A program made the position numbers and the translations under genes. A DNA stretch of 20,217 nt, taken from positions 1 through 20,217 of IMG/VR virus record IMGVR_UViG_3300046804_005082; one strand, 5' to 3'. Shown here in pieces: positions 4,213 through 18,649 of this stretch; the first letter of the stretch is position 1, and each line of letters opens with the position of its first letter. The stretch comes from a virus. The notes beneath the pieces were generated by a model that did not search any database, was not told the origin of the DNA, and worked only from the letters and a program-made list of their open reading frames with translations.

Positions 4213-5787
4213 ATGCAACAATTTTTTTACGATGCTCAAATCCGACGGTTCCTACTACAGTTCACCCGGATCATCAGCAACTTTCAAATTGAGTATGGCA
4301 ACGAGTCAGATGGTGTCAACAATGCCGCATTGATAAGAGTGCCTGTTCGCTACGGAGATGCCAGTCGCAATGCGCAGGTTATTATCCAAGAAAACAGCCG
4401 CAACTCAATGCCAGCATCGCCACTTATGACTTTCTACGTGTCTAGCCTGGATTATGATCGTCCTAGAATGCAGGAACCATATCATGTGAGCAAACTCAAT
4501 GTGCGTCAACGTACCTATGACACCGAAACTGACAGTTTTGAAACCACTCAAGGAAACGCATTCACTATTGAACGCTTGATGCCTGTGCCTTATAAACTAG
4601 GCATTACACTGGATATTTGGACGTCAAATACCAATCAAAAGATGCAGTTGTTGGAACAGATACTGACCTTGTTCAATCCCAGTTTGGAAGTGCAAAGCAC
4701 AGACAACTTCATTGACTGGACCAGTTTGAGTGTTGTTGACTTGGAATCAGTTACCTGGACTTCAAGAACTGTGCCAATTGGTACTGAAAATCCCATTGAC
4801 ATGGCCACTATAAAATTCAGTCTGCCAATTTGGATCTCTTCGCCGGCCAAGGTCAAGAAACTGGGTGTGGTCGAACGAGTGATCATGAGCATGTATGATG
4901 CGCAGGGCGATTTGAACAATGCCGTAACCGACAATGATCTACTGCTGGGCACTAGAGTCATTGTCACACCTTGGAATTATGAAGTTGTAGTGATTGGCAA
5001 TCAAATACAGTGCTTGCAAGGACGTACAATTGTGCCCAACGGTGCCAATGATGACTTGACACCTACGTCAGTGGTGGCTGGCAGCAGTTTGTTATGGCCC
5101 GCTGTGATCAGTGCATATGGCGTGCTACGTCCTGGCATAAGTCAAATACGCTTGGATCAAGAAAACGGTTCAACCATAGTAGGCACAGTTGTGGTCAATC
5201 CCAACGACGATAGATTTTTGATCTATGACATTGATCCAGACACAGCGCCACAAAACACCTTGGATCCTATCACTGCCATTATTGATCCTTTGGTGTCAGG
5301 GCCAGGTTATGGACTGCCCGATCCTGCTGTGGGTCAACGCTATCTGCTGACAGAACCCACTGGCAGCAACAATGTGGCCTATACAGCCACTGCTGGCACC
5401 TTTGTGACTGGCACTCGCTATACCATATCATACGTGGGCACCACAAACTTTGTGGCCATTGGTGCTACATCAAACACCGTGGGAATCAGTTTTTACGCTA
5501 CCGGTCCTGGATCAGGAACCGGAGCTGCCACCTACGCAGGACCAAATCTATATCCACCCGAGGCCTGGCTTGGTTCTGTTGGTCAACCCTTGGTAGCATC
5601 AGCCAACGACATCATTGAGTGGACAGGCACATATTGGCGAATTGTGTTCAACAGTGTATCACAGTCCCAAACGGTTCAGTACGTTACCAACATCACCACA
5701 GGTGTGCAATACGAATGGACTGGCGCAGAGTGGATCAAGAGTTATCAAGGTGTGTATCCTGGAGGCACATGGAGTCTGGTGCTTTGA
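4213..5787 (+). CDS. 15: Tail terminator / sheath-stabilising protein, T4 gp15-like, with C-terminal extension
   Basis: Residues 1-245 parallel T4 gp15. The start MQQFFYDAQIRRFLLQ corresponds to T4 MFGYFYNSSFRRYATL, ALIRVPVRYGD (39-49) to FIRVPITY, and MQLLEQILTLFNPSLE (144-159) to QIVEQILPYFQPHF. gp15 caps the sheath and tube and connects the tail to the neck. The protein is 524 residues against 272 in T4. The extension (about 250-524) contains a beta-rich unit starting GQRYLLTEPTG (374-384) and resuming AWLG...ANDIIEWTGTYWRI (451-477). Between them lies a Gly/Thr-rich module (393-442). It ends with YVTNITTGVQYEWTGAEW...GGTWSLVL. The start is 3 nt after the gp14 stop with only a weak ribosome binding site, so translation is probably coupled. 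The last 19 nt overlap the Nudix gene. Confidence 0.82.
   Translation: MQQFFYDAQIRRFLLQFTRIISNFQIEYGNESDGVNNAALIRVPVRYGDASRNAQVIIQENSRNSMPASPLMTFYVSSLDYDRPRMQEPYHVSKLNVRQRTYDTETDSFETTQGNAFTIERLMPVPYKLGITLDIWTSNTNQKMQLLEQILTLFNPSLEVQSTDNFIDWTSLSVVDLESVTWTSRTVPIGTENPIDMATIKFSLPIWISSPAKVKKLGVVERVIMSMYDAQGDLNNAVTDNDLLLGTRVIVTPWNYEVVVIGNQIQCLQGRTIVPNGANDDLTPTSVVAGSSLLWPAVISAYGVLRPGISQIRLDQENGSTIVGTVVVNPNDDRFLIYDIDPDTAPQNTLDPITAIIDPLVSGPGYGLPDPAVGQRYLLTEPTGSNNVAYTATAGTFVTGTRYTISYVGTTNFVAIGATSNTVGISFYATGPGSGTGAATYAGPNLYPPEAWLGSVGQPLVASANDIIEWTGTYWRIVFNSVSQSQTVQYVTNITTGVQYEWTGAEWIKSYQGVYPGGTWSLVL
5389..5538 (+). other. GTTNF module inserted in the gp15-like protein
   Basis: Residues 393-442 have the pattern YTISYVGTTNF..IGA....G..F.ATG.GSGTGAA. 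The same pattern recurs in the 280-residue virion protein (15564-15707). The flanks (RYLLTEPTG and AWLG) read as two halves of one domain, so the module looks inserted. Confidence 0.6.
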
Positions 5788-7122: not shown

Positions 7123-7130
7123 TATTTATG
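7123..7130 (-). promoter_or_regulatory. Late-type promoter box CATAAATA before the 304-aa fibre gene
   Basis: The minus strand reads CATAAATA, and its TAA is the stop codon of the 790-residue fibre gene. It lies 16 nt before the ATG at 7106, giving a short leader with AAGGAT. The box is identical to the one before the gp14-like gene. Confidence 0.55.
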
Positions 7131-9498
7131 GAGTGTAAACATACAGCGTTGACGTAGAGGGCACTGTGATATTATAGGCATTTCCAATGGTTACTGGGCC
7201 TACTAGCAACGCATTTACACTATCTGCCACAGTAACGTTGGCATTCAGTGTTTTTGGCCCTGCAAATGTGCCATACATGGTAAAACTGCCCAGGTTAATA
7301 ACCACAGTGTTTGACTGCCCGGCCACGCTCATGGCAATATTACCCGAAGAAACAGGTATGCTGATATTGGTGGCTCCATTGCTGATACCGTTGCTTGAAC
7401 CAGCACTGAGTCCTGTTAAAAATGCCCCGTTACCAACAAAATAATTACCAGTTACGTTGCCGGTTGCTGAAATTTGCCCTGCAGTTAGGATGTTTCCGCC
7501 AGTGATGTTGGCCGCTGAGGTAATTGTTGAAGTGGCCGAGATCAGCCCACCTGTCAACAGGTTACCACCAGTGATGTTGGCCGTAACTGATACAACCGAT
7601 CCTAGATGACTTGATCCAGTAACCGTGCCAGTTGCACTGACCAAACCACCTGTGAGTATGTTGCCACCTGTGACATTGGCAGTGGCACTAACTAAACCAC
7701 CTGTGAGTATGTTGCCACCAGTGACGTTGGCAGTGGCACTAACTAAACCACCAGTTAAAATGTTGCCACCAGTTACGTTGCCACTTGCTGATACCACAGA
7801 TCCCAGCAAACTAGTGCCAGTCACAGTGCCAGTTGCGCTGACATTGCCGTTGTTGTCCACTGTCACTCGAAGAGTGCCGTTGGTTGTGATACCAATATTG
7901 CCGTCGCTGATCCAATAAAAACCAGTGTCCTGACTGGTGTCTGCGGCAAATGTGATTCCTGGAGCAGATGCATTGCCACTGGCTGCAAATATTCTACCTG
8001 TGGCTGAAATAATGCCACCTGTGAGCAAGTTGCCACCTGTTACGTTGGCTGTGACTGATACAACCGAACCCAAATGACTTGAGCCGGTTACAGTTCCAGT
8101 GGCCGACACTAGGCCACCTGTGAGTAGGTTACCACCAGTGATGTTAGCCGCTGAGGTGATGGTTGAAGTAGCACTGATTAATCCGGCAGTGAGCAAATTA
8201 CCACCAGTGACATTGCCAGTGGCCGAGAATGCTCCACCATATGTAAGTGGGCCCGAACCGGCTCTACCCAATTGGGTACCGTCGGCGTTGCCAAACACAA
8301 TGTAAGCGTTGGCGGCATTTTGCTGGCCACGAATGCTCATGGTATCAGCAACGTTGATGTCACCAATCCAGACGTCGTCGCCTACTCTGAAGTTGGTACC
8401 ATTGCCGTTGTTGTTGGCCCAGATCTGGTTGGCCAAAATCCCTGAAGATATAAATTGTGCAGACCAGGCACCTGCCACATTGGCCACAATGTTGCCACTG
8501 GCGGCCACAACCACATTACTTGTGCCGTTGACAATACTAGCGCCGGCTGAGGCCACAATACCTGTGAGTTGCGATCCGTTGCCAATGAAGTAGTTGCCAG
8601 TAACGTTGCCAGTGGCACTGATACCAGCACTTTGTGGAAATGATACAATGTTACTAGTGGGACTGGCTTGCCACAGCACCCCAGAAGCGCCCGCGGCGTT
8701 CTGATAAAATGCTCTCAAGTTGTTGCTGCCATCAACATCCAAGTTCCAGGTTGAGTTTGCTTGACTGCTCAATCCGTTGACGTTGGTCCAGGCCAAGACC
8801 ATTTGTCCACCTTCACCAGTACTGGATGTTGAGTTGATTACTACAAAATCGTTGGCTATTACTGCTTTGCCAGAAATAACATTGCCAGCATTGACGTTGC
8901 CCGTGGCACTCACTGCCAATGAAGTGTTTATGCCTGATGAATTTATGTTTGCAAATTGTCTATATGCATTGCTGGATCTAAACTGGAATGCGCCGTTGGC
9001 ACTGCCACCAATACCAACATCAAAATACATGGACGAGTACACATTGGAATAATCACGAATAGCATATTCACCTGGTGTACCTGCGGTTGGGAACATTCCC
9101 AGTGCCACATTTGAAACAGCACCGTTGCCCACAGCAAATGCTGTACCATTGGTGCTGCCAGCACTGGTGATAGTGCCTGTGGCACTCATTTGTCCAACTG
9201 TTAATAAGTTGCCACCTGTTATGTTGGCTGTAACTGATACAACTGAACCCAAGAAACTGGATCCTGTAACTGTGCCAGTGGCTGATACCAAGCCACTTGT
9301 GAGTATGTTGCCGCCTGTGACATTGCCCGATACACTGACAAACTGATTGCTGGCAATAACAGTTACAACATTACTGGAATTTTTATAAAATAAGTTGCCA
9401 TCTGTGTAGTTCAAGGCCAATTCGCCTGCTTGCAGATTGCCAGCCGCTGGAATTGAATTTGCTGTACTTGAACGCTTGATTAATACAGTATTGGTCAT
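7126..9498 (-). CDS. Repeat-built tail-fibre-like protein (790 aa)
   Basis: Residues 1-50 (MTNTVLIKRSSTANSIP, then LQAGELALNYTDGNLFYKN) match the N-terminus of the 1222-residue neighbour and of many aquatic phage fibre proteins, and probably form the attachment end. The rest alternates about ten copies of a 17-residue repeat (xNxTGGNxLTGGLxSAT) with unique islands. One island contains YAIRDYSNVYSSMYFDVGIGG (about 143-165) and another AWTNVNGLSSQANSTWNLDVDG (about 235-255). Two GNG..LTG modules also occur, and the C-terminus is GPVTIGNAYNITVPSTSTLYVYTP. The composition is rich in Gly, Thr, Ser and Asn, with no Cys in the repeats that I noticed. A long trimeric beta-structured shaft with small globular domains is likely by analogy. 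It starts 21 nt after the end of the 1222-residue gene, with AGGATGAG upstream of the ATG. Confidence 0.75.
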   Translation of the reverse strand: MTNTVLIKRSSTANSIPAAGNLQAGELALNYTDGNLFYKNSSNVVTVIASNQFVSVSGNVTGGNILTSGLVSATGTVTGSSFLGSVVSVTANITGGNLLTVGQMSATGTITSAGSTNGTAFAVGNGAVSNVALGMFPTAGTPGEYAIRDYSNVYSSMYFDVGIGGSANGAFQFRSSNAYRQFANINSSGINTSLAVSATGNVNAGNVISGKAVIANDFVVINSTSSTGEGGQMVLAWTNVNGLSSQANSTWNLDVDGSNNLRAFYQNAAGASGVLWQASPTSNIVSFPQSAGISATGNVTGNYFIGNGSQLTGIVASAGASIVNGTSNVVVAASGNIVANVAGAWSAQFISSGILANQIWANNNGNGTNFRVGDDVWIGDINVADTMSIRGQQNAANAYIVFGNADGTQLGRAGSGPLTYGGAFSATGNVTGGNLLTAGLISATSTITSAANITGGNLLTGGLVSATGTVTGSSHLGSVVSVTANVTGGNLLTGGIISATGRIFAASGNASAPGITFAADTSQDTGFYWISDGNIGITTNGTLRVTVDNNGNVSATGTVTGTSLLGSVVSASGNVTGGNILTGGLVSATANVTGGNILTGGLVSATANVTGGNILTGGLVSATGTVTGSSHLGSVVSVTANITGGNLLTGGLISATSTITSAANITGGNILTAGQISATGNVTGNYFVGNGAFLTGLSAGSSNGISNGATNISIPVSSGNIAMSVAGQSNTVVINLGSFTMYGTFAGPKTLNANVTVADSVNALLVGPVTIGNAYNITVPSTSTLYVYTP
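7646..7747 (-). repeat. Two tandem 51-bp units in the 790-aa fibre gene
   Basis: Units 7646-7696 and 7697-7747 differ at only two positions and each encodes one 17-residue repeat. Other copies of the repeat in the gene differ at many silent positions, so this pair looks like a recent duplication. Confidence 0.85.
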
Positions 9499-9519: not shown

Positions 9520-12500
9520 TTAGTAAGTTCCGCCATCAACTGTTGAATTAATTGTTAAGACACTTGCTCCACCAACATACATAGCATTTGTGGCCAATAC
9601 GTTGCCCCCCGAAATATTACCTGCTGATGTTATATTACCAGTTGCACTCATCAGTCCACCTGTAAGCACGTTACCACCAGTAATATTGGCTGCTGAAGTG
9701 ATTGTTGATGTTGCTGATATCAAACCACCTGTCAACAAATTTCCACCAGTGGTGTTACCTGTAGCACTGATTAATCCGCCTGTGAGTATGTTGCCACCAG
9801 TGATGTTGGCAGCACTTGTTATAGTACTAGTGGCTGAAATCAATCCACCTGTCAATAAGTTACCACCTGTGACGTTGCCACTGAGTGATGCCACAGTACC
9901 CAATAAACTTGAACCTGTAACAGTACCAGTGGCACTAACCAAACCAGCAGTGGTTAGATTACCACCAATCACGTTGGCTGCTGAAGTGATGGTTGAAGTT
10001 GCTGAGATCAAACCACCTGTTAATATGTTACCACCAGTTACGTTGGCAGTTACACTGACCACTGAACCCAAATGACTTGAACCTGTGACAGTGCCAGTGG
10101 CACTAACCAAACCAGCGGTAGTGATATTACCACCAATTACGTTGGCAGCAGAAGTGATGGTCGAAGTTGCTGAGATCAGACCACCTGTCAGCAGATTACC
10201 ACCAGTGATGTTGGCTGCTGAAGTGATGGTTGAAGTGGCTGATATCAATCCACCAGTGAGTATGTTTCCACCTGTTACGTTGCCAGTGGCTGTGACCACG
10301 CCGGCAGTGCGTAAGTTGCCGCCGTCAACGTTGCCGGTTACACTTAGGCTTGTGCCAGTTGCGGCACCAATGTTGGGTGTAGTTAGGTTTGCACTGGCCT
10401 TGACACTGATATTACCTGAACCATCAAATGCTGTGGTTACTCCATCAACTTTGGCGTTGATCACAGTGCCTGCTAGACTGATACCAGCAGAACCGTTGGC
10501 AGTGTAAGTTTGGCTTGAACTGAACTGAGCAAACGAAATGTTTGATGTGCCAAATGTGATTGTGCCTGTGGGTGCGTCAACAATCCAGGCTGATCCTGCG
10601 TTGACGTTACCACTGGTAACAAAGAAGTAGTCGTTGATGCTAAGGTCTGTTGTACTGTTTGGACCATATGAGTCTGCGTCAGTGGAACGAGTAATCACTG
10701 TGGCATTGGACCAAATATAAACACCGTTGAGTACAGCATTGCCTTCGTTCTTGACCAAGATACGTGTGTTGGCTGTCTGCACGTTGGCCGTGTCAATCAA
10801 GTTGAACGAACCAGTTGTGGTGATTGTAGCACCAATGCCATTGCCAGCACCATTGGGCTGGTTGTAGGTTATTGTACCACCTGTAGTGGTGGCCAGGTTG
10901 GCAGTGGTTGCAGCCACAACACTTTGGTGATATGCCAACTGTGTTGACGCCATGTTGTCAACATATTCTTTGGTTGCCGCGTCCGATGACTGTACAGGAC
11001 TGTTGACGTTGTTGATATAGGTGTTGGCTGTGAGAACAATGTTACCACTGGCTGGTTGCAAATTAATTGCACCAGAACCAGTGCTGATTGTCAGCGCACC
11101 ACTGGCATTACGTAATGCCGCTGAATTTATATTAGCGCCTGTGATATTGCCAGTGGCCGAAATCACGCCACCTGTGAGTAAGTTGCCACCTGTGATGTTG
11201 GCTGCTGAGGTGATGGTTGAAGTAGCACTTACTAGACCAGAAGTCAGTAGGTTACCACCAGTGATGTTGGCTGTGGCTGATACAATACCACCTGTCAATA
11301 GGTTGCCGCCTGTGACGTTGCCACTGAGCGATGCCACGGTACCCAACAAACTTGAACCTGTCACAGTACCAGTTGCTGATACTAGGCCACCTGTCAGTAG
11401 GTTACCGCCTGTGATGTTGGCTGCTGAAGTAATTGTGGATGTGGCAGATATCAAACCACCTGTTAATATGTTACCACCAATTACGTTGGCAGTGGCTGAT
11501 ACTAAACCACCCGTCAGTACATTACCGCCAGTTACGTTACCAGTTACCGAAACCACCGCACCCAAATGACTTGAACCTGTCACAGTACCAGTTGCTGATA
11601 TCAAACCGCCTGTGAGTAGGTTACCACCAGTGATGTTGGCCGCTGAGGTAATTGTTGAAGTGGCAGAGACAAGCCCACCTGTCAACAAGTTGCCACCTGT
11701 GACGTTGGCTGTTACACTCACAACTGAACCCAGCAGACTTGAACCTGTGACTGTTCCTGTGGCACTGACCAAGCCGCCTGTGAGTAGGTTACCACCAGTG
11801 ATGTTGGCCGCTGAGGTAATTGTTGAAGTGGCAGATATCAACCCGCCTGTTAGTATGTTGGCGCCTGTGACGTTGCCGCTGGCACTGACTGCACCATTGA
11901 GTTGTACAATGCCTGTTCCTGTAGGAGTCAATGCCACGTTGGCATTGGCAGCAGTACTTGAAACCAGCGCATCGCTAGTATCAAGATAAGCGCCCGAAAT
12001 TACAAGATTACCTGCTGACAAAATGTTACCAGTGGCTGAAATAATGCCACCTGTGAGCAAGTTGCCACCAGTGACGTTACCAGTTACCGAAACCACTGCA
12101 CCCAAATGACTTGAACCTGTGACTGTGCCAGTTGCACTGACCAAGCCACCTGTGAGTATATTTCCACCAGTGATGTTTCCTGTTGCTGTTACCAAACCAG
12201 CAGTGGTTACGTTTCCACCTATGACATTGCCACTGGCGCTCAAGGTTGTAGATGCAATTACGTTGGCGCCAGTAATATTGCCACTGGAACCAGCCGTAGT
12301 AATATTGCCAAAAGTAGCATTACCGGTTGCTGATACTACTCCTCCTGTCAACAAGTTGCCACCAGTGATATTGGCCGCTGAGGTTATAGTCGAGGTGGCT
12401 GATATTAAGCCACCTGTGAGGATGTTACCACCAGTTACGTTACCACTGAGCGATGCCACTGTGCCCAGTAAGCTTGATCCTGTCACAGTGCCAGTGGCTG

Positions 12501-13188
12501 ATACCAATCCACCTGTTAGAACGTTACCACCGGTGATGTTACCACCGGCACTCAGCACACCAGTTATGTACTCGCCAGTTGAAGCAAACACTGCCACATT
12601 GGCTGTGCCGTTTACACCAACAGTGACGTTGGCATTTGCACTGCCAATACTGACATTTGATGTACCGTTATTGATATTGGCAACCGATGTTATAACACCA
12701 GTTAAAAATGCACCATTACCAAGAATGTAGTTGCCTGTGATATTGCCTGTGGCACTGACCACGCCTGCTGTCAATAGGTTGCCGCCTGTGACATTACCAG
12801 TTGCGCTGAATAATCCACCTGTCAGTAGGTTACCACCAGTGATGTTGGCTGCTGAGGTGATGGTTGATGTGGCCGAAATCAAACCACCTGTTAGAACGTT
12901 ACCACCAGTTACATTGCCAGTGACTGAAACCACTGAACCCAAAAAACTGGATCCTGTTACTGTGCCAGTGGCCGATACCAATCCACCTGTCAGTAGGTTA
13001 CCACCAGTGACGTTGCCAACCACAGTGAGCACTTGATTACTGGCAATCAGTTTAACAGTGCCGCCTGAGTCTTTGTAGAACAAATTACCATCGGCGTAGT
13101 TGATTGCTAATTCGCCCAATGATAAATTTGCACTCAAAGGCACTGAATTTGCTGTGCCTGATCTTTTCAATAATAGTGTGTTTGACAT
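9520..13188 (-). CDS. Giant repeat-built tail-fibre-like protein (1222 aa)
   Basis: Residues 1-52 (MSNTLLLKRSGTANSVP, LGELAINYADGNLFYKD) are the same N-terminal domain as in the 790-residue fibre. I count about 30 copies of a 17-residue repeat, xNxTGGNxLTGGLxSAT. They are joined directly, by STITSAA, or by a 16-residue GTVTGSSxLGxVxSxx block, giving a frequent higher-order unit of 56 residues (168 bp). Near residues 733-890 a non-repeat domain interrupts them: SSDAATKEYVDNMA, then TTGGTITYNQ, RILVKNEGNAVLNGVYIW, RSTDADSYG and AWIVDAPTGTITFGTSNISF. This domain is common in phage fibres. The C-terminus is short (MYVGGASVLTINSTVDGG) with no chaperone or knob. It probably forms an elongated adhesive shaft on the virion. 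The gene starts 9 nt after the end of the 454-residue fibre gene, with AAGGG upstream, so the two are probably co-transcribed. Confidence 0.78.
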   Translation of the reverse strand: MSNTLLLKRSGTANSVPLSANLSLGELAINYADGNLFYKDSGGTVKLIASNQVLTVVGNVTGGNLLTGGLVSATGTVTGSSFLGSVVSVTGNVTGGNVLTGGLISATSTITSAANITGGNLLTGGLFSATGNVTGGNLLTAGVVSATGNITGNYILGNGAFLTGVITSVANINNGTSNVSIGSANANVTVGVNGTANVAVFASTGEYITGVLSAGGNITGGNVLTGGLVSATGTVTGSSLLGTVASLSGNVTGGNILTGGLISATSTITSAANITGGNLLTGGVVSATGNATFGNITTAGSSGNITGANVIASTTLSASGNVIGGNVTTAGLVTATGNITGGNILTGGLVSATGTVTGSSHLGAVVSVTGNVTGGNLLTGGIISATGNILSAGNLVISGAYLDTSDALVSSTAANANVALTPTGTGIVQLNGAVSASGNVTGANILTGGLISATSTITSAANITGGNLLTGGLVSATGTVTGSSLLGSVVSVTANVTGGNLLTGGLVSATSTITSAANITGGNLLTGGLISATGTVTGSSHLGAVVSVTGNVTGGNVLTGGLVSATANVIGGNILTGGLISATSTITSAANITGGNLLTGGLVSATGTVTGSSLLGTVASLSGNVTGGNLLTGGIVSATANITGGNLLTSGLVSATSTITSAANITGGNLLTGGVISATGNITGANINSAALRNASGALTISTGSGAINLQPASGNIVLTANTYINNVNSPVQSSDAATKEYVDNMASTQLAYHQSVVAATTANLATTTGGTITYNQPNGAGNGIGATITTTGSFNLIDTANVQTANTRILVKNEGNAVLNGVYIWSNATVITRSTDADSYGPNSTTDLSINDYFFVTSGNVNAGSAWIVDAPTGTITFGTSNISFAQFSSSQTYTANGSAGISLAGTVINAKVDGVTTAFDGSGNISVKASANLTTPNIGAATGTSLSVTGNVDGGNLRTAGVVTATGNVTGGNILTGGLISATSTITSAANITGGNLLTGGLISATSTITSAANVIGGNITTAGLVSATGTVTGSSHLGSVVSVTANVTGGNILTGGLISATSTITSAANVIGGNLTTAGLVSATGTVTGSSLLGTVASLSGNVTGGNLLTGGLISATSTITSAANITGGNILTGGLISATGNTTGGNLLTGGLISATSTITSAANITGGNVLTGGLMSATGNITSAGNISGGNVLATNAMYVGGASVLTINSTVDGGTY
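9640..10345 (-). repeat. C-terminal block of 17-residue coding repeats
   Basis: About ten copies of the 51-bp fibre repeat and its spacers lie between the central unique domain and the C-terminus of the 1222-residue fibre. Copies are strongly conserved in protein but vary at third positions, including different Leu codons. Confidence 0.8.
11140..13020 (-). repeat. N-terminal block of 17-residue coding repeats
   Basis: About twenty copies of the 51-bp repeat are arranged singly or in 168-bp composite units. They are broken by islands near 12560-12700 (GNG..LTG module) and near 11880-12010 (a TAANAN/LTPTGTG module shared with the 304-residue fibre gene). Confidence 0.8.
11606..11835 (-). repeat. 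Exact 62-bp direct repeat, offset 168 bp
   Basis: Positions 11606-11667 and 11774-11835 are identical over 62 bp and begin 168 bp apart, which is one 56-residue composite unit. Bases flanking both copies differ. This is the longest exact repeat I noticed in the window. Confidence 0.85.
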
Positions 13189-13197
13189 CTTTTACCC

Positions 13198-14562
13198 TTA
13201 AAATTCCCCGCCGCTGATCAATTGCCCATCATTTGTCATTTTGATCCAAGGAGTCCATGCATTGTTCCAATAATTTCTATTCCATTGAATCTTCACATCT
13301 GACAGATTCACCGTCCCAGGATAAAAGATTTGTGTTGTTGCTTGCGATTGACTGGTTTGTACCTGCAACAATCCAACAAAAACCTGACTATCAAGGGGCG
13401 TACCTTGAGTACCACTCCAACTTGCTCTATTTACCAAATATACACCCATTTCAGTCAGGGTGTCCCAATTATTGGTATCGCTGCCTCTATCTGCCAGTAC
13501 TCCTGTTAACCCTGTGCCGTTGCCGCTGAAAAAATCAGCAGTGAGGTTGCCAGAGACATCAAGTCCGTTGGTGCTAAACACTGCAACATTGGAAACTCCG
13601 CCAACAGAAATATTGGCATTTCCGCTGGCGGTTTGAATGTCAATGGAAGTGTTGCCGTTCTGTATCCTGTCACCAAGAATATTGCCTGTCAAAGTTGCAT
13701 TGCCAGTGACTGTTAGATTGCCTGTTATTGTGACATCTTGACTAGACACCACCATGACATTGCTGACACCATTGGATGAAAACGCAATATCACTGTTAGC
13801 GTAAACCTGAACATTACTGTTGCCGTTTGTTAAATTTGAAGATGAAACATTGATACCAGTTAGTTGTGAACCATTACCAAAAAAGTAACCGGCAGTGATG
13901 TTAGCAGTAGTGACAATAGGCACATTGCTGTTATTGCTCAAAATTTCTTGGCCGTTGATTGTGAGCACGTTACTGGCATTCAAACTCAACGGCACATTAT
14001 TCAAGTAAATGGAAGCGTTTGACACATACAAATCGCTCCACTGGTTTGTAGAATTACCCAAGGAATATGAGTTACCCGAAACTGGGATAATATTACCGTC
14101 TAAGAGTATTCCATTTGGGGTAAACGTGGCAACATTGCTAACACCCGAGACGCTGACTGTAACATTACTGTTTGCAAGAACTTTTACATTGCTGTTACCA
14201 TTGGATATAATATTGCCACCCGATACTGCAACGCCAGTCAACAAAGAACCGTTGCCTACAAAATAGCCACCATAAACGTACTGAAATGGATTGTTTGTAT
14301 CACCAAGATTATAAACACCTGGTGTGCCTGGCACAATTGAACTGTTGGCTTGAATATTACCAATGCCATTGCCGGCCAGCGTCAACCCCAGATTTGTCAC
14401 TGTGGTTGTGACTATGTTGCCAGTGATCTGTACCTGGCTACCAACAGGTCCAGCAGTCCAAATCTGCGTAAAATTGTCATTTACTGCATTAAAGGCATCG
14501 CGTAAGGGCTCACCTGTGCCATCATTGGCTGCGGCCCCAACGTCTATTATCTGTTGTGTCAT
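13198..14562 (-). CDS. Tail-fibre protein with pyocin-knob-like C-terminus (454 aa)
   Basis: The N-terminus IDVGAAANDGTGEPLRDAFNAVNDNFTQIW (residues 6-35) is a motif widespread at the start of T4-like baseplate-attached fibres and probably the anchor. Three related modules follow (about 102-156, 228-283 and 302-355), each with forms of GNGxxLTG and/or NGNSNVxVxANSxxxxSxxGVSNV. Residues about 361-454 are a knob-like domain: WDTLTEMGVYLVNRASW, GTQGTPLDS, GLLQVQTS, QIFYPG, KIQWNRNYWNNAWTPWIKM and the terminal GGEF. This resembles pyocin-knob domains that bind surface glycans or assist trimer formation. It is the first and most complete fibre of the cluster, with a GGTAAATA late box 22 nt upstream. 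The knob is absent from the next two genes, so the proteins may assemble in series or serve different receptors. Confidence 0.8.
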   Translation of the reverse strand: MTQQIIDVGAAANDGTGEPLRDAFNAVNDNFTQIWTAGPVGSQVQITGNIVTTTVTNLGLTLAGNGIGNIQANSSIVPGTPGVYNLGDTNNPFQYVYGGYFVGNGSLLTGVAVSGGNIISNGNSNVKVLANSNVTVSVSGVSNVATFTPNGILLDGNIIPVSGNSYSLGNSTNQWSDLYVSNASIYLNNVPLSLNASNVLTINGQEILSNNSNVPIVTTANITAGYFFGNGSQLTGINVSSSNLTNGNSNVQVYANSDIAFSSNGVSNVMVVSSQDVTITGNLTVTGNATLTGNILGDRIQNGNTSIDIQTASGNANISVGGVSNVAVFSTNGLDVSGNLTADFFSGNGTGLTGVLADRGSDTNNWDTLTEMGVYLVNRASWSGTQGTPLDSQVFVGLLQVQTSQSQATTQIFYPGTVNLSDVKIQWNRNYWNNAWTPWIKMTNDGQLISGGEF

Positions 14563-14617: not shown

Positions 14618-15202
14618 TTAAACTTCTTTGGTCACCAGACGATTTTGAAATTCTGCCATGGTCATGTGTGTGAGATTGGCCACACCCAGCAGGTCACGTA
14701 TTTCTGCGGTGGTATCTCCAGTGATTCTAAAGAAACTGGTCTTGGGAAAGTCTCGAGCAACTGTTTTTAACTGGTTGACCCAGTTACCCGAAAACGTGGG
14801 ATTGGCTGAACTTTTTTTGTAGAATTCTGTGTCTGCGTACACATTGTTGAATCTGCCGTTGCGTGTTGGGCCCATGTCAAATCCTATCATGTACACAGCA
14901 ATTGCACCATCTATGGCAGCCTGTGCCACTGCCACAGGACCTGAACTGTAGCCAAAATATTTTTGTGCTATGCGCCTTGCACCCGAATCAGGCAAGGGCT
15001 TTCTGGTATAGTGAACATGTGAGTGGCTGTAACCTTCTTGTTGAATACGTTCGCTGATAGGGGTATCTGTGCTGATCAACACATCAGGTTCAAATTCTCT
15101 ATAGATTGCGTTGCAGCCATAAACCTGTCCCAGTGGTTTTAACTGATAGAGATCTAGTGCTTGTCTGCTGATACCATTGCCCAATACAAATGCCGCGGTC
15201 AT
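14618..15202 (-). CDS. Conserved phage protein with Rossmann-like, sialyltransferase (GT42)- or DUF115-like layout
   Basis: The 194-residue protein has AFVLGNGISR at 4-13, then GCNAIYREFEPDVLISTD at 29-46, SSGPVAVAQAAIDGAIAVYMIGFDMG at 86-111, and NPTFSGNW at 134-141. The order GNG-S, CN..Y, SG....A...G...IY..G.D is that of GT42 sialyltransferases (Campylobacter CstII) and of DUF115/MptE-like proteins, which bind nucleotides at the Gly-rich loop. At 194 residues it is shorter than CstII, and I see no clear equivalent of the catalytic His, so the activity is uncertain. I recall similar proteins in aquatic T4-like phages, unnamed. Translation should start at 15202 from GGGAGG, which is buried in the 3' arm of the preceding terminator. 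The nearby GT9-like gene suggests a shared glycan role, which is inference. Confidence 0.55.
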   Translation of the reverse strand: MTAAFVLGNGISRQALDLYQLKPLGQVYGCNAIYREFEPDVLISTDTPISERIQQEGYSHSHVHYTRKPLPDSGARRIAQKYFGYSSGPVAVAQAAIDGAIAVYMIGFDMGPTRNGRFNNVYADTEFYKKSSANPTFSGNWVNQLKTVARDFPKTSFFRITGDTTAEIRDLLGVANLTHMTMAEFQNRLVTKEV

Positions 15203-15236
15203 AAAAAAATCCTCCCAGTATGTATCCAGGAGGATT
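15203..15236 (-). terminator. Intrinsic terminator after the 280-aa virion gene, containing the next gene's Shine-Dalgarno
   Basis: On the minus strand an 11-bp stem (15236-15226 with 15218-15208, two G-T pairs) closes a 7-nt loop and runs into seven Ts, two of them in the stem. The 3' arm contains GGGAGG (15216-15211), 8 nt before the ATG at 15202. Folding would therefore both stop transcription and hide the ribosome site. Confidence 0.8.
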
Positions 15237-15251
15237 CTGAAGGGTTACAAA

Positions 15252-16094
15252 TTAACTGGTTACACTGTTGATTTGTGCCAGTTGCAATGTACCGTTTTGT
15301 GCTTGTGCGCTGGAAATAACTTCGGCACCAGACCATGTGACATTGCCTTCATCAGTGAAGAAGTTGGTTGGGTAGAAATTTTCACCACTTTGAACGTTGG
15401 TACCATAGTTGCTGTTGCTGTAGTTACCATAGGTCATGCCGTTCCAATCACGTACCCACTTATTGGTGATATAACTGGCATACACAGCACTGGAGTCGCC
15501 AACAGAGAAACCAATGGACATGTAACCAGCGGCAGGAGTGGCTGTGTTGCTCAACACACACTGTCCAACTGCGTAAACTGTACCTGTTCCTGCGCCAGCA
15601 TCTGCTGTGCAAGTAAACACATCACCAACTGCGGCACCAATGGGGGCACCACATGCTTGCCAGTTTGTTGTGCCAAGAGCGGCAATTTGGTATGCCTGAC
15701 CAACCAACATATCTTCGTCAGCAATAGTTGCACCTGTTGCGGCTACCAGGAACTTGTGTGCGCCTTTCTGGCGAATAATGCGACCGGTATATGAACTGGT
15801 GGCTGTGTAACTGTCGGTTCCGTCGGCCAACAAAATGTTGACCAATGCTGAAATTTCTGGATTGGTTGCACTGGCTGTGCCAGTGGCAGGTGATCCACCT
15901 ACCACGCCCAAATACTGTGTGCTGTCTAAGGTCTGAACTGGTGTGTTATACACTGGATTTGTAAGTGATCCAAAGTTAGGATATCCGGCGTCAGTCAAGA
16001 CGTTTTGGTTGTAGGTTGTAACTACTGGATCAGAACCAGATACAGAAGTACCTGCACCGATGTTGGTTTTTTGAATTTTAAGAGCTCTTCCCAT
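15252..16094 (-). CDS. Virion structural protein (280 aa), probably capsid or tail decoration
   Basis: The protein starts MGRALKIQKTNIGAG and is rich in Gly, Thr, Ala, Asn and Ser, as in secreted or virion beta-proteins; no signal peptide is visible. Residues 105-117 (RIIRQKGAHKFLV) and 177-183 (GQCVLSN) look like parts of one domain split by a module at about 130-177. That module contains AYQIAALGTTNWQACGA and ends GAGTGTVYA. A related module sits in the gp15-like protein. The C-terminal part has YITNKWVRDWNGMTYGNYSNSNYG and a Gln/Asn-rich tail. AAGGAG precedes the ATG, and a GCTAAATA box lies 85 nt upstream, so a late leader of about 80 nt with a small hairpin is expected. A terminator follows. 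I recall related proteins beside capsid genes in aquatic T4-like phages, but the exact role is unknown. Confidence 0.6.
   Translation of the reverse strand: MGRALKIQKTNIGAGTSVSGSDPVVTTYNQNVLTDAGYPNFGSLTNPVYNTPVQTLDSTQYLGVVGGSPATGTASATNPEISALVNILLADGTDSYTATSSYTGRIIRQKGAHKFLVAATGATIADEDMLVGQAYQIAALGTTNWQACGAPIGAAVGDVFTCTADAGAGTGTVYAVGQCVLSNTATPAAGYMSIGFSVGDSSAVYASYITNKWVRDWNGMTYGNYSNSNYGTNVQSGENFYPTNFFTDEGNVTWSGAEVISSAQAQNGTLQLAQINSVTS
15564..15707 (-). other. GTTNW module in the 280-aa virion protein
   Basis: Residues 130-177 follow the pattern YxIxxxGTTNxxxxGA.....GxxFxxxxxxGxGTGxx, shared with the gp15-like protein at 5389-5538. Two Cys residues (148 and 162) occur here but not in the gp15 copy. 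Confidence 0.6.
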
Positions 16095-16108
16095 TTGATT
16101 TCTCCTTA

Positions 16109-16130
16109 TAGAAGCCCAATGCGGGTTCTA
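16109..16130 (-). promoter_or_regulatory. Possible leader hairpin upstream of the 280-aa virion gene
   Basis: The minus strand reads TAGAACCC-GCATT-GGG(C)TTCTA, an 8-bp stem with one bulged base. It lies just upstream of the AAGGAG of the virion gene. No U-tract follows, so it is more likely a leader or stability element than a terminator. Confidence 0.35.
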
Positions 16131-16171
16131 GCCGCTACGCAGTGGTTACCTGCATAAAACACAGAATTGTG

Positions 16172-16200
16172 TTGACCAGTATTTAGCAGAAATGTAAAAT
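16172..16200 (+). promoter_or_regulatory. Possible sigma-70 promoter of the TPR-glycosyltransferase gene
   Basis: TTGACC (16172-16177), a 17-bp spacer and TAAAAT (16195-16200) lie on the plus strand, 28 nt before the ATG at 16229. The -10 has one mismatch to consensus. No Shine-Dalgarno follows. It overlaps the minus-strand late box at 16180-16187. Confidence 0.45.
16180..16187 (-). promoter_or_regulatory. Late-type promoter box GCTAAATA before the 280-aa virion gene
   Basis: The minus strand reads GCTAAATA in the 134-bp divergent gap, 85 nt before the ATG at 16094. It is the only late box in the window with a long leader. Confidence 0.4.
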
Positions 16201-16215
16201 AAGGTGTTAGCATGG

Positions 16216-16223
16216 CGTAAATA
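16216..16223 (+). promoter_or_regulatory. Late-type promoter box CGTAAATA before the TPR-glycosyltransferase gene
   Basis: CGTAAATA ends 5 nt before the ATG at 16229 and no ribosome site lies between, so a late transcript would begin at the start codon, as at the gp14-like gene. Confidence 0.45.
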
Positions 16224-16228
16224 TCCCT

Positions 16229-17383
16229 ATGAATCAATCTCAAATAGATTTAATCGAACAAGGCAACCAGTATCGTGCCGATCACGAACCTGAAAAATCA
16301 CTACGATGTTATGCACAGGTCTTGGTAGAAGATCCTGACAATGCTGCCGCCTTTTGCAACTATGGCAATGTCATGCGCGAACTGGGTTATCCACAACGTG
16401 CCATACCTTTTTTACAACATTCTATCCTACTGGATCCCACCAATACAATTGCTCAATTCAATCTTGCAGTGGCATATTTGCTCATGGGCGACTATCAGCG
16501 TGGCTGGGCGCAGTACGAAACACGGTGGCAATTTGAACACCTGCAAGGCACTGAACCCCAATTCACCCAGCCACGTTGGAAGGGAGAAGATATAAAAGAT
16601 AAAACTATCCTGGTAGTGGGCGAACAAGGACACGGTGACTGCATTCAGTTCGTACGATTTATTCATAATCTGCACGCCATGGGTGCCCGGGTAAAACTAC
16701 AAGTCACAGATGGTCTTATTCCCTTGTTGAGTCAAAGCAACATTATCGAACGCACAGGCAGATACGGTGAAGACATGGGTGAGTTTGATTATTGGGTTCC
16801 CATCATGAGTATTCCAGGCATCTTGGGCATTACCTTGGACAACTTACCAAGACTACAAAATTATTTGACTGCTACTCCTGCCCTGACGCGATCTTGGCAA
16901 GATAGATTAGGGCCCAAAAAACGCATGCGAGTGGGTGTGAGTTGGAGCGGTCGCAAGGATTCATGGATACATCAACACAAGAGTGTGCCATTCCCAATCA
17001 TACTTGAAATGATTCGGGCCAATCCACAGTACGAATGGATCAACCTGCAGGTGGATGCTGACCCTGAGGAAGAACACCAATTAACTGAGGCCGGAGTAAC
17101 TGCCTACCCTGGTACCATTGCCAGTTTTGCTGATACTGCGGCCTTGCTCATGCACATGGATGTGGTGGTTTCTGTAGATACTGCTGTGAGTCACCTAGCA
17201 GGAGCACTGGGTAGGCCCACATGGATCATGCTGAATCAATATGGCCAAGATTGGCGTTGGTTGTTGGACCGCAACAATTGCCCTTGGTATCCCACTGCCA
17301 CACTGTTTAGACAACCCAGTAGAGGTGACTGGACCACGGTAACCGACAAGATTGGCAAATTCCTAAGTTGGTACAAAGTTTAA
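16229..17383 (+). CDS. TPR-containing glycosyltransferase-like protein (GT9/heptosyltransferase-like, GT-B)
   Basis: The 384-residue protein has an N-terminal TPR region (about 5-105, three repeats with NAAAFCNYGNVMRELG and NTIAQFNLAVAYLLMGDY). A linker with PRWKGEDIKDKTILVV leads to EQGHGDCIQFVRFI (132-145). The C-terminal half has MRVGVSWSGR (233-242), FADTAALLMHMDVVVSVDTAVSHLAGALGRPTWIML (300-335) and DWRWLLDRNNCPWYPTATLFRQ (341-362). This is the architecture of bacterial TPR-GT proteins, whose C-terminal SVDTxxxHLAGALG motif is the nucleotide-sugar-binding part of GT9 heptosyltransferases. It may add a sugar to virion proteins or host surface glycan; donor and acceptor are unknown. It is the only plus-strand gene in the right half. 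Its leader has both a sigma-70-like and a late-type box, no Shine-Dalgarno, and a bidirectional terminator follows. Confidence 0.78.
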   Translation: MNQSQIDLIEQGNQYRADHEPEKSLRCYAQVLVEDPDNAAAFCNYGNVMRELGYPQRAIPFLQHSILLDPTNTIAQFNLAVAYLLMGDYQRGWAQYETRWQFEHLQGTEPQFTQPRWKGEDIKDKTILVVGEQGHGDCIQFVRFIHNLHAMGARVKLQVTDGLIPLLSQSNIIERTGRYGEDMGEFDYWVPIMSIPGILGITLDNLPRLQNYLTATPALTRSWQDRLGPKKRMRVGVSWSGRKDSWIHQHKSVPFPIILEMIRANPQYEWINLQVDADPEEEHQLTEAGVTAYPGTIASFADTAALLMHMDVVVSVDTAVSHLAGALGRPTWIMLNQYGQDWRWLLDRNNCPWYPTATLFRQPSRGDWTTVTDKIGKFLSWYKV

Positions 17384-17390
17384 GTCAAAG

Positions 17391-17414
17391 AAAAAGCCCC
17401 TTCCGGGGCTTTTT
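17391..17414. terminator. Bidirectional intrinsic terminator
   Basis: AAAAAGCCCC-TTCC-GGGGCTTTTT forms a perfect 10-bp stem with a 4-nt loop and gives a U-tract on both strands. It lies between the convergent ends of the glycosyltransferase (17383) and the major capsid gene (17453). Confidence 0.92.
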
Positions 17415-17452
17415 CGTTCCTTCCCATCCCTGAGAAAGTTTGCGTTCTCTGA

Positions 17453-18649
17453 TTAGGAGAATGACAAGTTAGATACAGCGATCTCACCAACATAGTCACC
17501 AGCATTGCCGAAGCTAGATGCGGTGTTTGTCAATTCGATGTAACCATAACGTGTCATGAATGACACCACTGGTTCGAATGTTGTTGGATCCAACACAACG
17601 CCTGAAGACATCAATGGGATGTATGGGCAGTAGAATGCTGGAGCGTCTGCTTCGCTAGAACCCTTGTAACCAACCAACACAGGAGTTGTGTCGCTTGCAT
17701 AAGAGTCAACGAACACACGCATTGCGCCGTTCAATGTACCAACAAACTTGGTGTTTGTAGGTGCTTCGAATGTGCCTTCTGTGGTACGTGCAAATGCGCT
17801 AGTTGTAGCAGATTGCAACACTGTCAAAGCGGCTGAAGAAACAACAGCATAGTTACCTGCGCCACGACGTGTACGTTGGGCGATCAAGTTAGCAACACGG
17901 TTGATCAAAACTGCCAATGCGGCATGTTCGTCACCAACGAATGTAGCAGTACCTGAAACGGTTGCTTGGTTGTATGTGAACTCAGTTGCTGCCAATGAAC
18001 GCAGAGACAATAGAATCTCTTGGTCAATTTCAGCAGTGATTTCTTGAGCCAAAGCAGCCATGATTTCTGCTTCAACGTCAATACCGTGCATGGCTTGTGC
18101 ATCTTGTGCAGATTCAAAAGTCCAACGTGCTTGCAACTTACGTGTGCGTGCTTCAACGGCTTGTTTCAAGATTTGCACAGAAATTTGCTTACCGCCTGTA
18201 CCTTCCATGGTAGCTGTGTTGTTACCAGTGTAGTTGGTAGCAGTGCTAGTACCTTGGGGCACAGTAGAGTATGCTTGTGCAATTGTGAATGGGCTCAATG
18301 CTTCCTGACCTGCTGTTACAGAAGTAGCGGCAGCAGAAGTGTCAGTCAAGCTCTGTGCATAACGAACACGCAGAGTGTGGATTTGACCAACTGGGCCTGT
18401 CATGGGCTGAACACCAACCAACTCGTTAGCGATAACAGTTGGCATAACACGACGAATCACTGGCAGAATCACACGGTTAAGTGTGGCGATGTTGCCAGAT
18501 GCTGTGGAACCAGCAGTTGCGTTTTCTTTCAAATACTTGCGTGTATTTTCAAGGATAACGCCCATGCTGTTGCGCTTTGAGCCGTTAAGACCTTCGAGCA
18601 ATGCTTCTTTGGTCTCGCCCCAGCGGCTTTCTAATAGTTCTTGTGACAT
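17453..18649 (-). CDS. 23: Major capsid protein, T4 gp23-like
   Basis: The 398-residue protein carries clear gp23 segments. MPTVIANELVGVQPMTGPVGQIHTLRVRY (69-97) corresponds to T4 PNLIAFDICGVQPMSGPTGQ. QARWTFESAQDAQAMHGIDVEAEIMAALAQEI corresponds to T4 YSIELAQDLRAVHGMDADAEL. It forms the hexameric shell of the head (HK97 fold). It is shorter than T4 gp23 (521), as in distant environmental T4-like groups, so much of the T4 insertion domain is probably absent. The N-terminal 42 residues contain several LxE/IxE sites for gp21 protease (LLE at 6 and 19, ILE at 34, YLKE at 42), the last being the likeliest maturation cut. TAGGAG precedes the ATG, and a TTATAAAA stretch overlapping the gp22 stop may be a late promoter (weak). 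The 23-22-21 order is as in T4, and a strong terminator follows. Confidence 0.95.
   Translation of the reverse strand: MSQELLESRWGETKEALLEGLNGSKRNSMGVILENTRKYLKENATAGSTASGNIATLNRVILPVIRRVMPTVIANELVGVQPMTGPVGQIHTLRVRYAQSLTDTSAAATSVTAGQEALSPFTIAQAYSTVPQGTSTATNYTGNNTATMEGTGGKQISVQILKQAVEARTRKLQARWTFESAQDAQAMHGIDVEAEIMAALAQEITAEIDQEILLSLRSLAATEFTYNQATVSGTATFVGDEHAALAVLINRVANLIAQRTRRGAGNYAVVSSAALTVLQSATTSAFARTTEGTFEAPTNTKFVGTLNGAMRVFVDSYASDTTPVLVGYKGSSEADAPAFYCPYIPLMSSGVVLDPTTFEPVVSFMTRYGYIELTNTASSFGNAGDYVGEIAVSNLSFS

Follow-up and report, generated by a model that had tools for sequence, protein, structure and literature searches.

Several described systems attach sugars to proteins in ways that bear on the locus described here. 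In Caulobacter, FlmG is a protein O-glycosyltransferase that combines a TPR domain with a GT-B domain (PMC7591256), and TibC, which has been described as WaaC-like, modifies solenoid, Ser-rich passengers (PMC4358343). Maf enzymes, whose PF01973 domain is reported to be CstII-like, have been described as Ser/Thr nonulosonate transferases (PMC11339370). Virion glycosylation is also a known kind of modification, since mycobacteriophage-encoded glycosyltransferases have been described that modify the capsid and tail tube (Freeman et al. 2023, as cited in PMC12619734 and PMC10877033). Here we analyze a 20,217-base fragment of IMG/VR record IMGVR_UViG_3300046804_005082, from a T4-like phage; "the window" refers to this whole stretch. 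Between the major capsid gene, gp23, and a set of repeat-rich fibre-like genes, it carries three open reading frames (ORFs), which encode a TPR-containing GT9-type protein (TPR-GT9), a 280-amino-acid (aa) MGRP-type protein, and a 194-aa protein of the GT42/Maf superfamily. We postulate, at about an even chance, that this block serves to glycosylate virions, as a phage-encoded cassette that is expressed late and uses host nucleotide sugars.

A conserved gene block beside the capsid gene

The block and the capsid gene that flanks it are arranged as follows:

17453 to 18649, minus strand: gp23 major capsid protein, flanking the block, candidate acceptor (Pfam Gp23, E 1.4e-96)
16229 to 17383, plus strand: 384-aa protein with TPR (residues about 1 to 105) and a predicted GT9-type GT-B glycosyltransferase domain (Pfam, motifs, model)
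15252 to 16094, minus strand: 280-aa MGRP-type protein (V280), presumed virion protein (position, beta module), directly upstream of the 194-aa gene
14618 to 15202, minus strand: 194-aa GT42/Maf-superfamily protein, a minimal Rossmann domain (profile, model, motifs)

A sequence-only reading of this DNA had placed two enzyme genes on either side of the 280-aa gene, between the capsid and fibre genes, and all three ORFs are present there. TPR-GT9 runs opposite to the 280-aa and 194-aa genes, which follow one another on the minus strand. The order gp23, TPR-GT9 (opposite strand), 280-aa MGRP gene, 194-aa gene, and fibre genes is common to about 100 uncultivated relatives. Median dN/dS was 0.07 for TPR-GT9, 0.12 for the 194-aa gene, and 0.19 for the 280-aa gene, which indicates that all three are maintained by purifying selection; these values, together with the retention of the block across about 100 distinct relatives, put the arrangement well beyond chance.

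The 280-aa protein matched no family model in Pfam and PHROG searches, and its gene was absent from the phage records of the collection at the sensitivity used. It shares a beta module (YxIxxxGTTNxxAxGA...GxGTG) with the C-terminal extension of gp15 (4213 to 5787), with a Smith-Waterman score of 93 against a shuffled maximum of 71. The sequence-only reading had called it a virion protein; its position and the gp15-like module fit that label and lead us to presume it, although no family model backs it. Divergent relatives encode short MGRP versions of 119 to 129 aa.

In addition to gp23, the window encodes the gp15 sheath stabiliser, a neck protein, large repeat proteins, and gp21-like and gp22-like ORFs, the last two named from position only. 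The gp23 protein shares about 65% identity with its counterparts in jumbo phages that have been isolated, PA5oct and Vibrio phage 2.275 among them, and contigs related to the window phage reach 330 to 345 kb.

TPR-GT9 combines a TPR domain with a GT9-type domain

The 384-aa protein scored above the Pfam cut-offs for TPR_2 (40.8 bits; cut-off, 27) and for Glyco_transf_9 (PF01075; 27.5 bits; cut-off, 22), the latter over only about 33 residues (299 to 331). PF01075 was also above its cut-off in the TPR-GT9 of 8 of 9 large records. The protein has both an N-terminal GxGD with the catalytic Asp and a C-terminal DTxxxHLAGALGxP nucleotide motif, and the roles of these GT9 motifs are those in WaaC-type enzymes. 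Across 34 TPR-GT9 sequences, G136 and D137 (in the motif GEQGHGD), K251, and D317, H322, and G328 (in the motif VDTAxSHLAGALG) were invariant.

The structure model is only moderately confident (pLDDT 80.7). It contains the two Rossmann domains of a GT-B fold (TMq 0.48 against 1psw and 0.50 against 3tov), joined to the TPR domain within one chain, as in FlmG/OGT-like enzymes. Its best Foldseek matches were SPINDLY and OGT (E 6.7e-11), followed by the GT9 structures 1psw and 3tov; because the TM-scores are low, the OGT-type scores are probably due in part to the TPR half. By domain matches and model, the protein is a TPR domain followed by a GT9-type GT-B domain, a predicted sugar-transferase fold, in agreement with the sequence-only reading. 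Cellular relatives occur in Ramlibacter (37% identity) and Paraburkholderia (29 to 32%), and no informative gene neighbourhood was seen around them.

Distribution of the block and its accessory gene

After duplicate removal we examined 164 distinct 194-aa genes, of which 147 had at least 1.3 kb of upstream sequence. An MGRP-type gene lay upstream in 132 of the 147, and in 125 its stop codon fell within 150 bp of the 194-aa start; the other 15 were phages that carry the enzyme after the portal gene and more distant groups. TPR-GT9 was found in 83 of 107 contigs that have gp23, MGRP, and the 194-aa gene, and every TPR-GT9 locus with room for it (110/110) had the 194-aa gene, so the two enzyme genes are not independently distributed. 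A further set of loci was collected through the gp22-like gene and so was not selected by these genes; of its 13 loci that continue for at least 5 kb beyond gp23, 12 had all three. The remaining locus, L184 (9118 to 17092), on a 331-kb contig, has none of them and carries a GIY-YIG-like gene and unrelated fibre-like genes after gp23 instead. Shared descent accounts for much of this distribution, and absence from fragments is weaker evidence than presence. The core of the block is the MGRP gene plus the 194-aa enzyme, and TPR-GT9 is a clade-specific accessory. Thus, of the two-enzyme set proposed from sequence, the conserved linkage to a virion-like gene stands, while the tight pair is MGRP with the 194-aa gene and not the two enzymes.

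The interval between TPR-GT9 and gp23 varied from 66 to 2,542 bp in relatives, the longer ones carrying extra genes. Many relatives have a third glycosyltransferase (GT)-like protein with an SEKxxKP motif (L109, 8018 to 9067; L092, 7752 to 8738), fragments of which remain in L042 (3056 to 3496) and L044. It is present in four loci where TPR-GT9 is absent (L283, L296, L299, and L311), and its match to a fucosyltransferase was not significant (E 0.064).

The strongest competing explanation is that the two enzymes are functionally unrelated and that TPR-GT9 is one cargo gene in a hot spot on the gp23 side. This slot carries varied cargo, including the third GT-like protein, GIY-YIG endonucleases, a radical SAM protein, a desaturase, and TANGO2. 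Because the presence of TPR-GT9 changed only about six times on the 194-aa protein tree, three of these forced, its nesting within the 194-aa distribution may be mere phylogeny. However, none of the other cargo is nearly as constant as TPR-GT9, on which purifying selection is strong. We regard functional independence as somewhat unlikely.

Late-promoter-like elements around the block

The T4 late promoter is TATAAATA, with TAAATA as its core. The 134 bp that separate TPR-GT9 from the 280-aa gene show unusual conservation and hold two such elements; a third feature lies at the other end of TPR-GT9:

16180 to 16185, minus strand: TAAATA resembling a late promoter, assigned to V280 and the 194-aa gene (109 of 110 relatives)
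16218 to 16223, plus strand: TAAATA resembling a late promoter, 5 nt ahead of the ATG of TPR-GT9 (TAAATA-N4/5-ATG in 100 of 110 relatives)
17390 to 17415, both directions: hairpin resembling an intrinsic terminator, where gp23 and TPR-GT9 converge (window sequence only)

In 19 relatives, 80 of 133 TAAATA copies lay no more than 100 nt upstream of an ORF start, versus 5.4 expected, an enrichment of about 15-fold. For three control hexamers of similar composition the figures were 7 to 10 of 80 to 93, and hexamers that overlap TAAATA scored higher. Six of the eight copies in the window are just upstream of ORF starts (2823 and 16218 on the plus strand; 16185, 14590, 7128, and 1346 on the minus strand). 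In these phages, TAAATA seems to be the core of the late promoter, and it offers a means of reading late genes in uncultivated members. Since TAAATA is spaced from the ATG as it would be in a T4 late promoter that starts transcription at the ATG, the TPR-GT9 message could be leaderless; TPR-GT9 and the gene at 2836 may both have near-leaderless late messages. A sigma70-like site before TPR-GT9 was considered as its early promoter and set aside, being kept in 72 of 110 relatives versus 100 of 110 for TAAATA.

These elements bear on a second alternative, that the enzymes remodel the host surface, altering lipopolysaccharide (LPS) or capsule to block adsorption of sibling or rival phages, with TPR-GT9 a moron-like insertion under its own promoter and terminator. 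TPR-GT9 is a separate, opposite unit that ends in the hairpin and is preceded in those 72 relatives by the sigma70-like site, and the founder enzymes of GT9 and GT42 act on LPS or lipooligosaccharide. However, the TAAATA elements are kept much more consistently, the region's sigma70-like matches stay within what shuffles give, and the 194-aa gene lies inside the structural operon, after the virion-like MGRP gene. Neither enzyme has a transmembrane-like segment by hydropathy, and resistance acquired late in a lytic infection would be of little benefit. We consider host-surface remodelling unlikely.

A minimal GT42/Maf-superfamily protein

As a single sequence, the 194-aa protein gave no matches in Pfam or in the PDB, and it matched PHROG 4603 (alpha-2,3-sialyltransferase; E 1.3e-4); a family profile was therefore needed for detection in the PDB. 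With a profile of 53 relatives, the PDB search returned nine sequences at E values up to 10, all of them GT42 sialyltransferases (E 2.5e-4 to 7.4e-4). Searched individually against Pfam, 13 of the 53 matched CST-I (PF06002) and 19 matched MptE-like/DUF115 (PF01973; best E 4.8e-4), results consistent with the GT42/DUF115-like motif order noticed earlier from the sequence. In one HHalign comparison, against Maf-type domains from genomes of one bacterial class, the family aligned at a probability of 94% (E 1.4e-7; unrelated control, 8.6%). PF06002 had no matches in 369 genomes of one class or in the controls. No phage record similar to CstII itself was found, so a GT42 alignment could not be built.

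The structure comparison proposed in the sequence-only reading pointed the same way. The model (pLDDT 93.2) had as its top three PDB matches in Foldseek human ST6GALNAC2, twice, and CstII (families GT29 and GT42; E 3e-3 to 6e-3, none below 1e-3), and MptE (8sd5) ranked 18th (probability 0.93). Among viral models it matched uncharacterised phage proteins, several annotated as MptE-like or DUF115. Its motifs are GNGxSR (residues 8 to 13), CN (30 to 31), D46, SSG (86 to 88), GFD (107 to 109), and NNxY (119 to 122). Residues G8, N9, G10, S12, R13, C30, N31, R35, D46, G88, G107, D109, N119, N120, Y122, and Y128 were invariant in the 53 sequences. From the profile and model evidence, we assign the family to the GT42/Maf (PF01973) superfamily. 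Similarity to both GT42 and PF01973 is expected of such an enzyme, given that the PF01973 domain of Maf is itself reported to be CstII-like (PMC11339370).

No column of the family alignment has an invariant His; His is frequent only at positions 62 (57%) and 179 (72%), neither of which is equivalent to the position in CstII of the catalytic histidine, His188. Because that histidine is not conserved, the label "sialyltransferase" cannot be claimed and the protein is not a canonical GT42 enzyme. In a third alternative, the 194-aa gene encodes a nucleotide or pterin pyrophosphokinase of the MptE type, or else a noncatalytic morphogenesis factor with that fold, and TPR-GT9 is the sole glycosylator. 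The missing histidine, the 19 Pfam matches, the MptE structure among the Foldseek matches, and the alignment of D46 with the conserved Asp of PF01973 are all in its favor. However, sialyltransferases rank above MptE both by profile and by fold, and the neighbourhood of the 194-aa gene showed no folate or pterin gene. This explanation also seems improbable to us.

Variants of the family occur in other settings. In pelagiphage-type members (L001, 4180 to 4983; L002, 9001 to 9846; L075, 5992 to 6822), a long insert separates the D46 region from the SG motif, at a place where CstII likewise carries additional sequence. HTVC008M (L001) encodes another copy at 752 to 1306, with a carbamoyltransferase between the two copies, and in a distant group (L068, 1676 to 6550) the family is found in a cassette with sulfotransferase-like and asparagine-synthase-like genes.

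Proposed function and candidate acceptors

We favor modification of virion proteins over modification of the host surface or of DNA because of the late-promoter-like elements, the apparently soluble proteins, and the placement among virion genes. In this proposal, TPR-GT9 would be expressed late, use its TPR domain to bind a virion protein, and transfer a sugar from a host nucleotide sugar, by analogy with OGT and FlmG, which select protein acceptors by TPR. The 194-aa enzyme would act on the adjacent MGRP protein, or extend a glycan on MGRP or on the repeat fibres, with a host CMP-type sugar as donor, and glycosylation would be cytoplasmic. Phage glycosyltransferases often modify DNA, with a T4-type precedent (PMC12619734), but sugar addition to hypermodified phage DNA is very improbable here, as both genes lie in the head and fibre block with late-promoter-like elements, away from nucleotide metabolism, and TPR-GT9 resembles protein O-glycosyltransferases and LPS enzymes.

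The MGRP protein, encoded next to the 194-aa gene, and the repeat fibres are candidate acceptors in addition to gp23. The fibre-like genes are:

13198 to 14562, minus strand: 454-aa fibre-like protein, downstream of the 194-aa gene
9520 to 13188, minus strand: 1222-aa repeat fibre-like protein, candidate acceptor (30 GGNxLTxG-type repeat matches; 28% Ser+Thr)
7126 to 9498, minus strand: 790-aa repeat fibre-like protein (10 repeat matches)

The repeats and the Ser+Thr content of the largest of these make the repeat fibres candidates, since they resemble in kind the solenoid passengers that TibC heptosylates (PMC4358343). TPR-GT9 and repeat fibres were associated (26 of 38 versus 2 of 15; p 1.4e-4, kinship ignored).

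Several points weigh against the cassette. Phylogenetic correction left only three independent pairs for the fibre association, which gives it no power. TPR-GT9 is absent from 24 of the 107 contigs described above, the 194-aa family has other locations in other phages, behind the portal gene or close to gp32 and gp59, and its members lack the invariant histidine. No NeuB or CMP-sugar synthetase was above its family cut-off in nine large, incomplete relatives; we therefore assume host sugar donors. The glycans, catalysis, donor, acceptor, and any benefit in shielding or adsorption are things that we infer. A more specific version is tentative and rather less probable than the general one: that a widespread, minimal 190-aa GT42/Maf-like enzyme from the structural operon of T4-like phages puts a sialic-acid-like sugar on the neighbouring MGRP head protein within the host cytoplasm and that, in one clade, TPR-GT9 adds a second sugar of another kind on fibre solenoid repeats, giving a virion glycan coat made from host donors.

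If the cassette functions as we postulate, enzymes encoded next to the capsid gene glycosylate the particles of the phages that carry them, a large group of uncultivated aquatic T4-like phages. Virion glycosylation would then extend beyond mycobacteriophages, and one would have to ask what such a coat protects against. The cassette would also provide a GT42/Maf-type enzyme of very small size with its probable acceptor encoded next to it, readily tested and perhaps of use in glyco-engineering.

Comparison with known systems

TPR-GT9 resembles FlmG, OGT, and SPINDLY at the level of architecture, with an N-terminal TPR and a C-terminal GT-B domain in one soluble protein. In contrast to these enzymes, its catalytic domain has GT9 motifs and its TPR is short (about three repeats). 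The Pfam match and the fold similarity to 1psw and 3tov ally it with GT9 heptosyltransferases, at weak sequence identity. Unlike the BAHT enzyme TibC, it has TPR in place of the BAHT accessory and iron-finger parts.

The 194-aa protein shares with CstI and CstII the motif order GNG, CN, SG, GxD, and GT42 was the sole PDB family found by its profile; it is about 43 aa shorter than CstII across the aligned region and is without the invariant catalytic histidine. The family aligns with the Maf domain, but the protein is a single domain of 194 aa, whereas Maf has three domains and more than 800 aa, and its gene is not beside flagellin.

A functional parallel is mycobacteriophage virion glycosylation, in which, as we propose here for different phages, phage-encoded glycosyltransferases act on virion proteins. 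The sequence-only reading had known of no such function described for this pair of enzymes. Glycosylation of phage virions is already known, according to the two papers cited at the outset, as is protein O-glycosylation by TPR-containing glycosyltransferases elsewhere; within the open-licence literature, this variant appears to be new.

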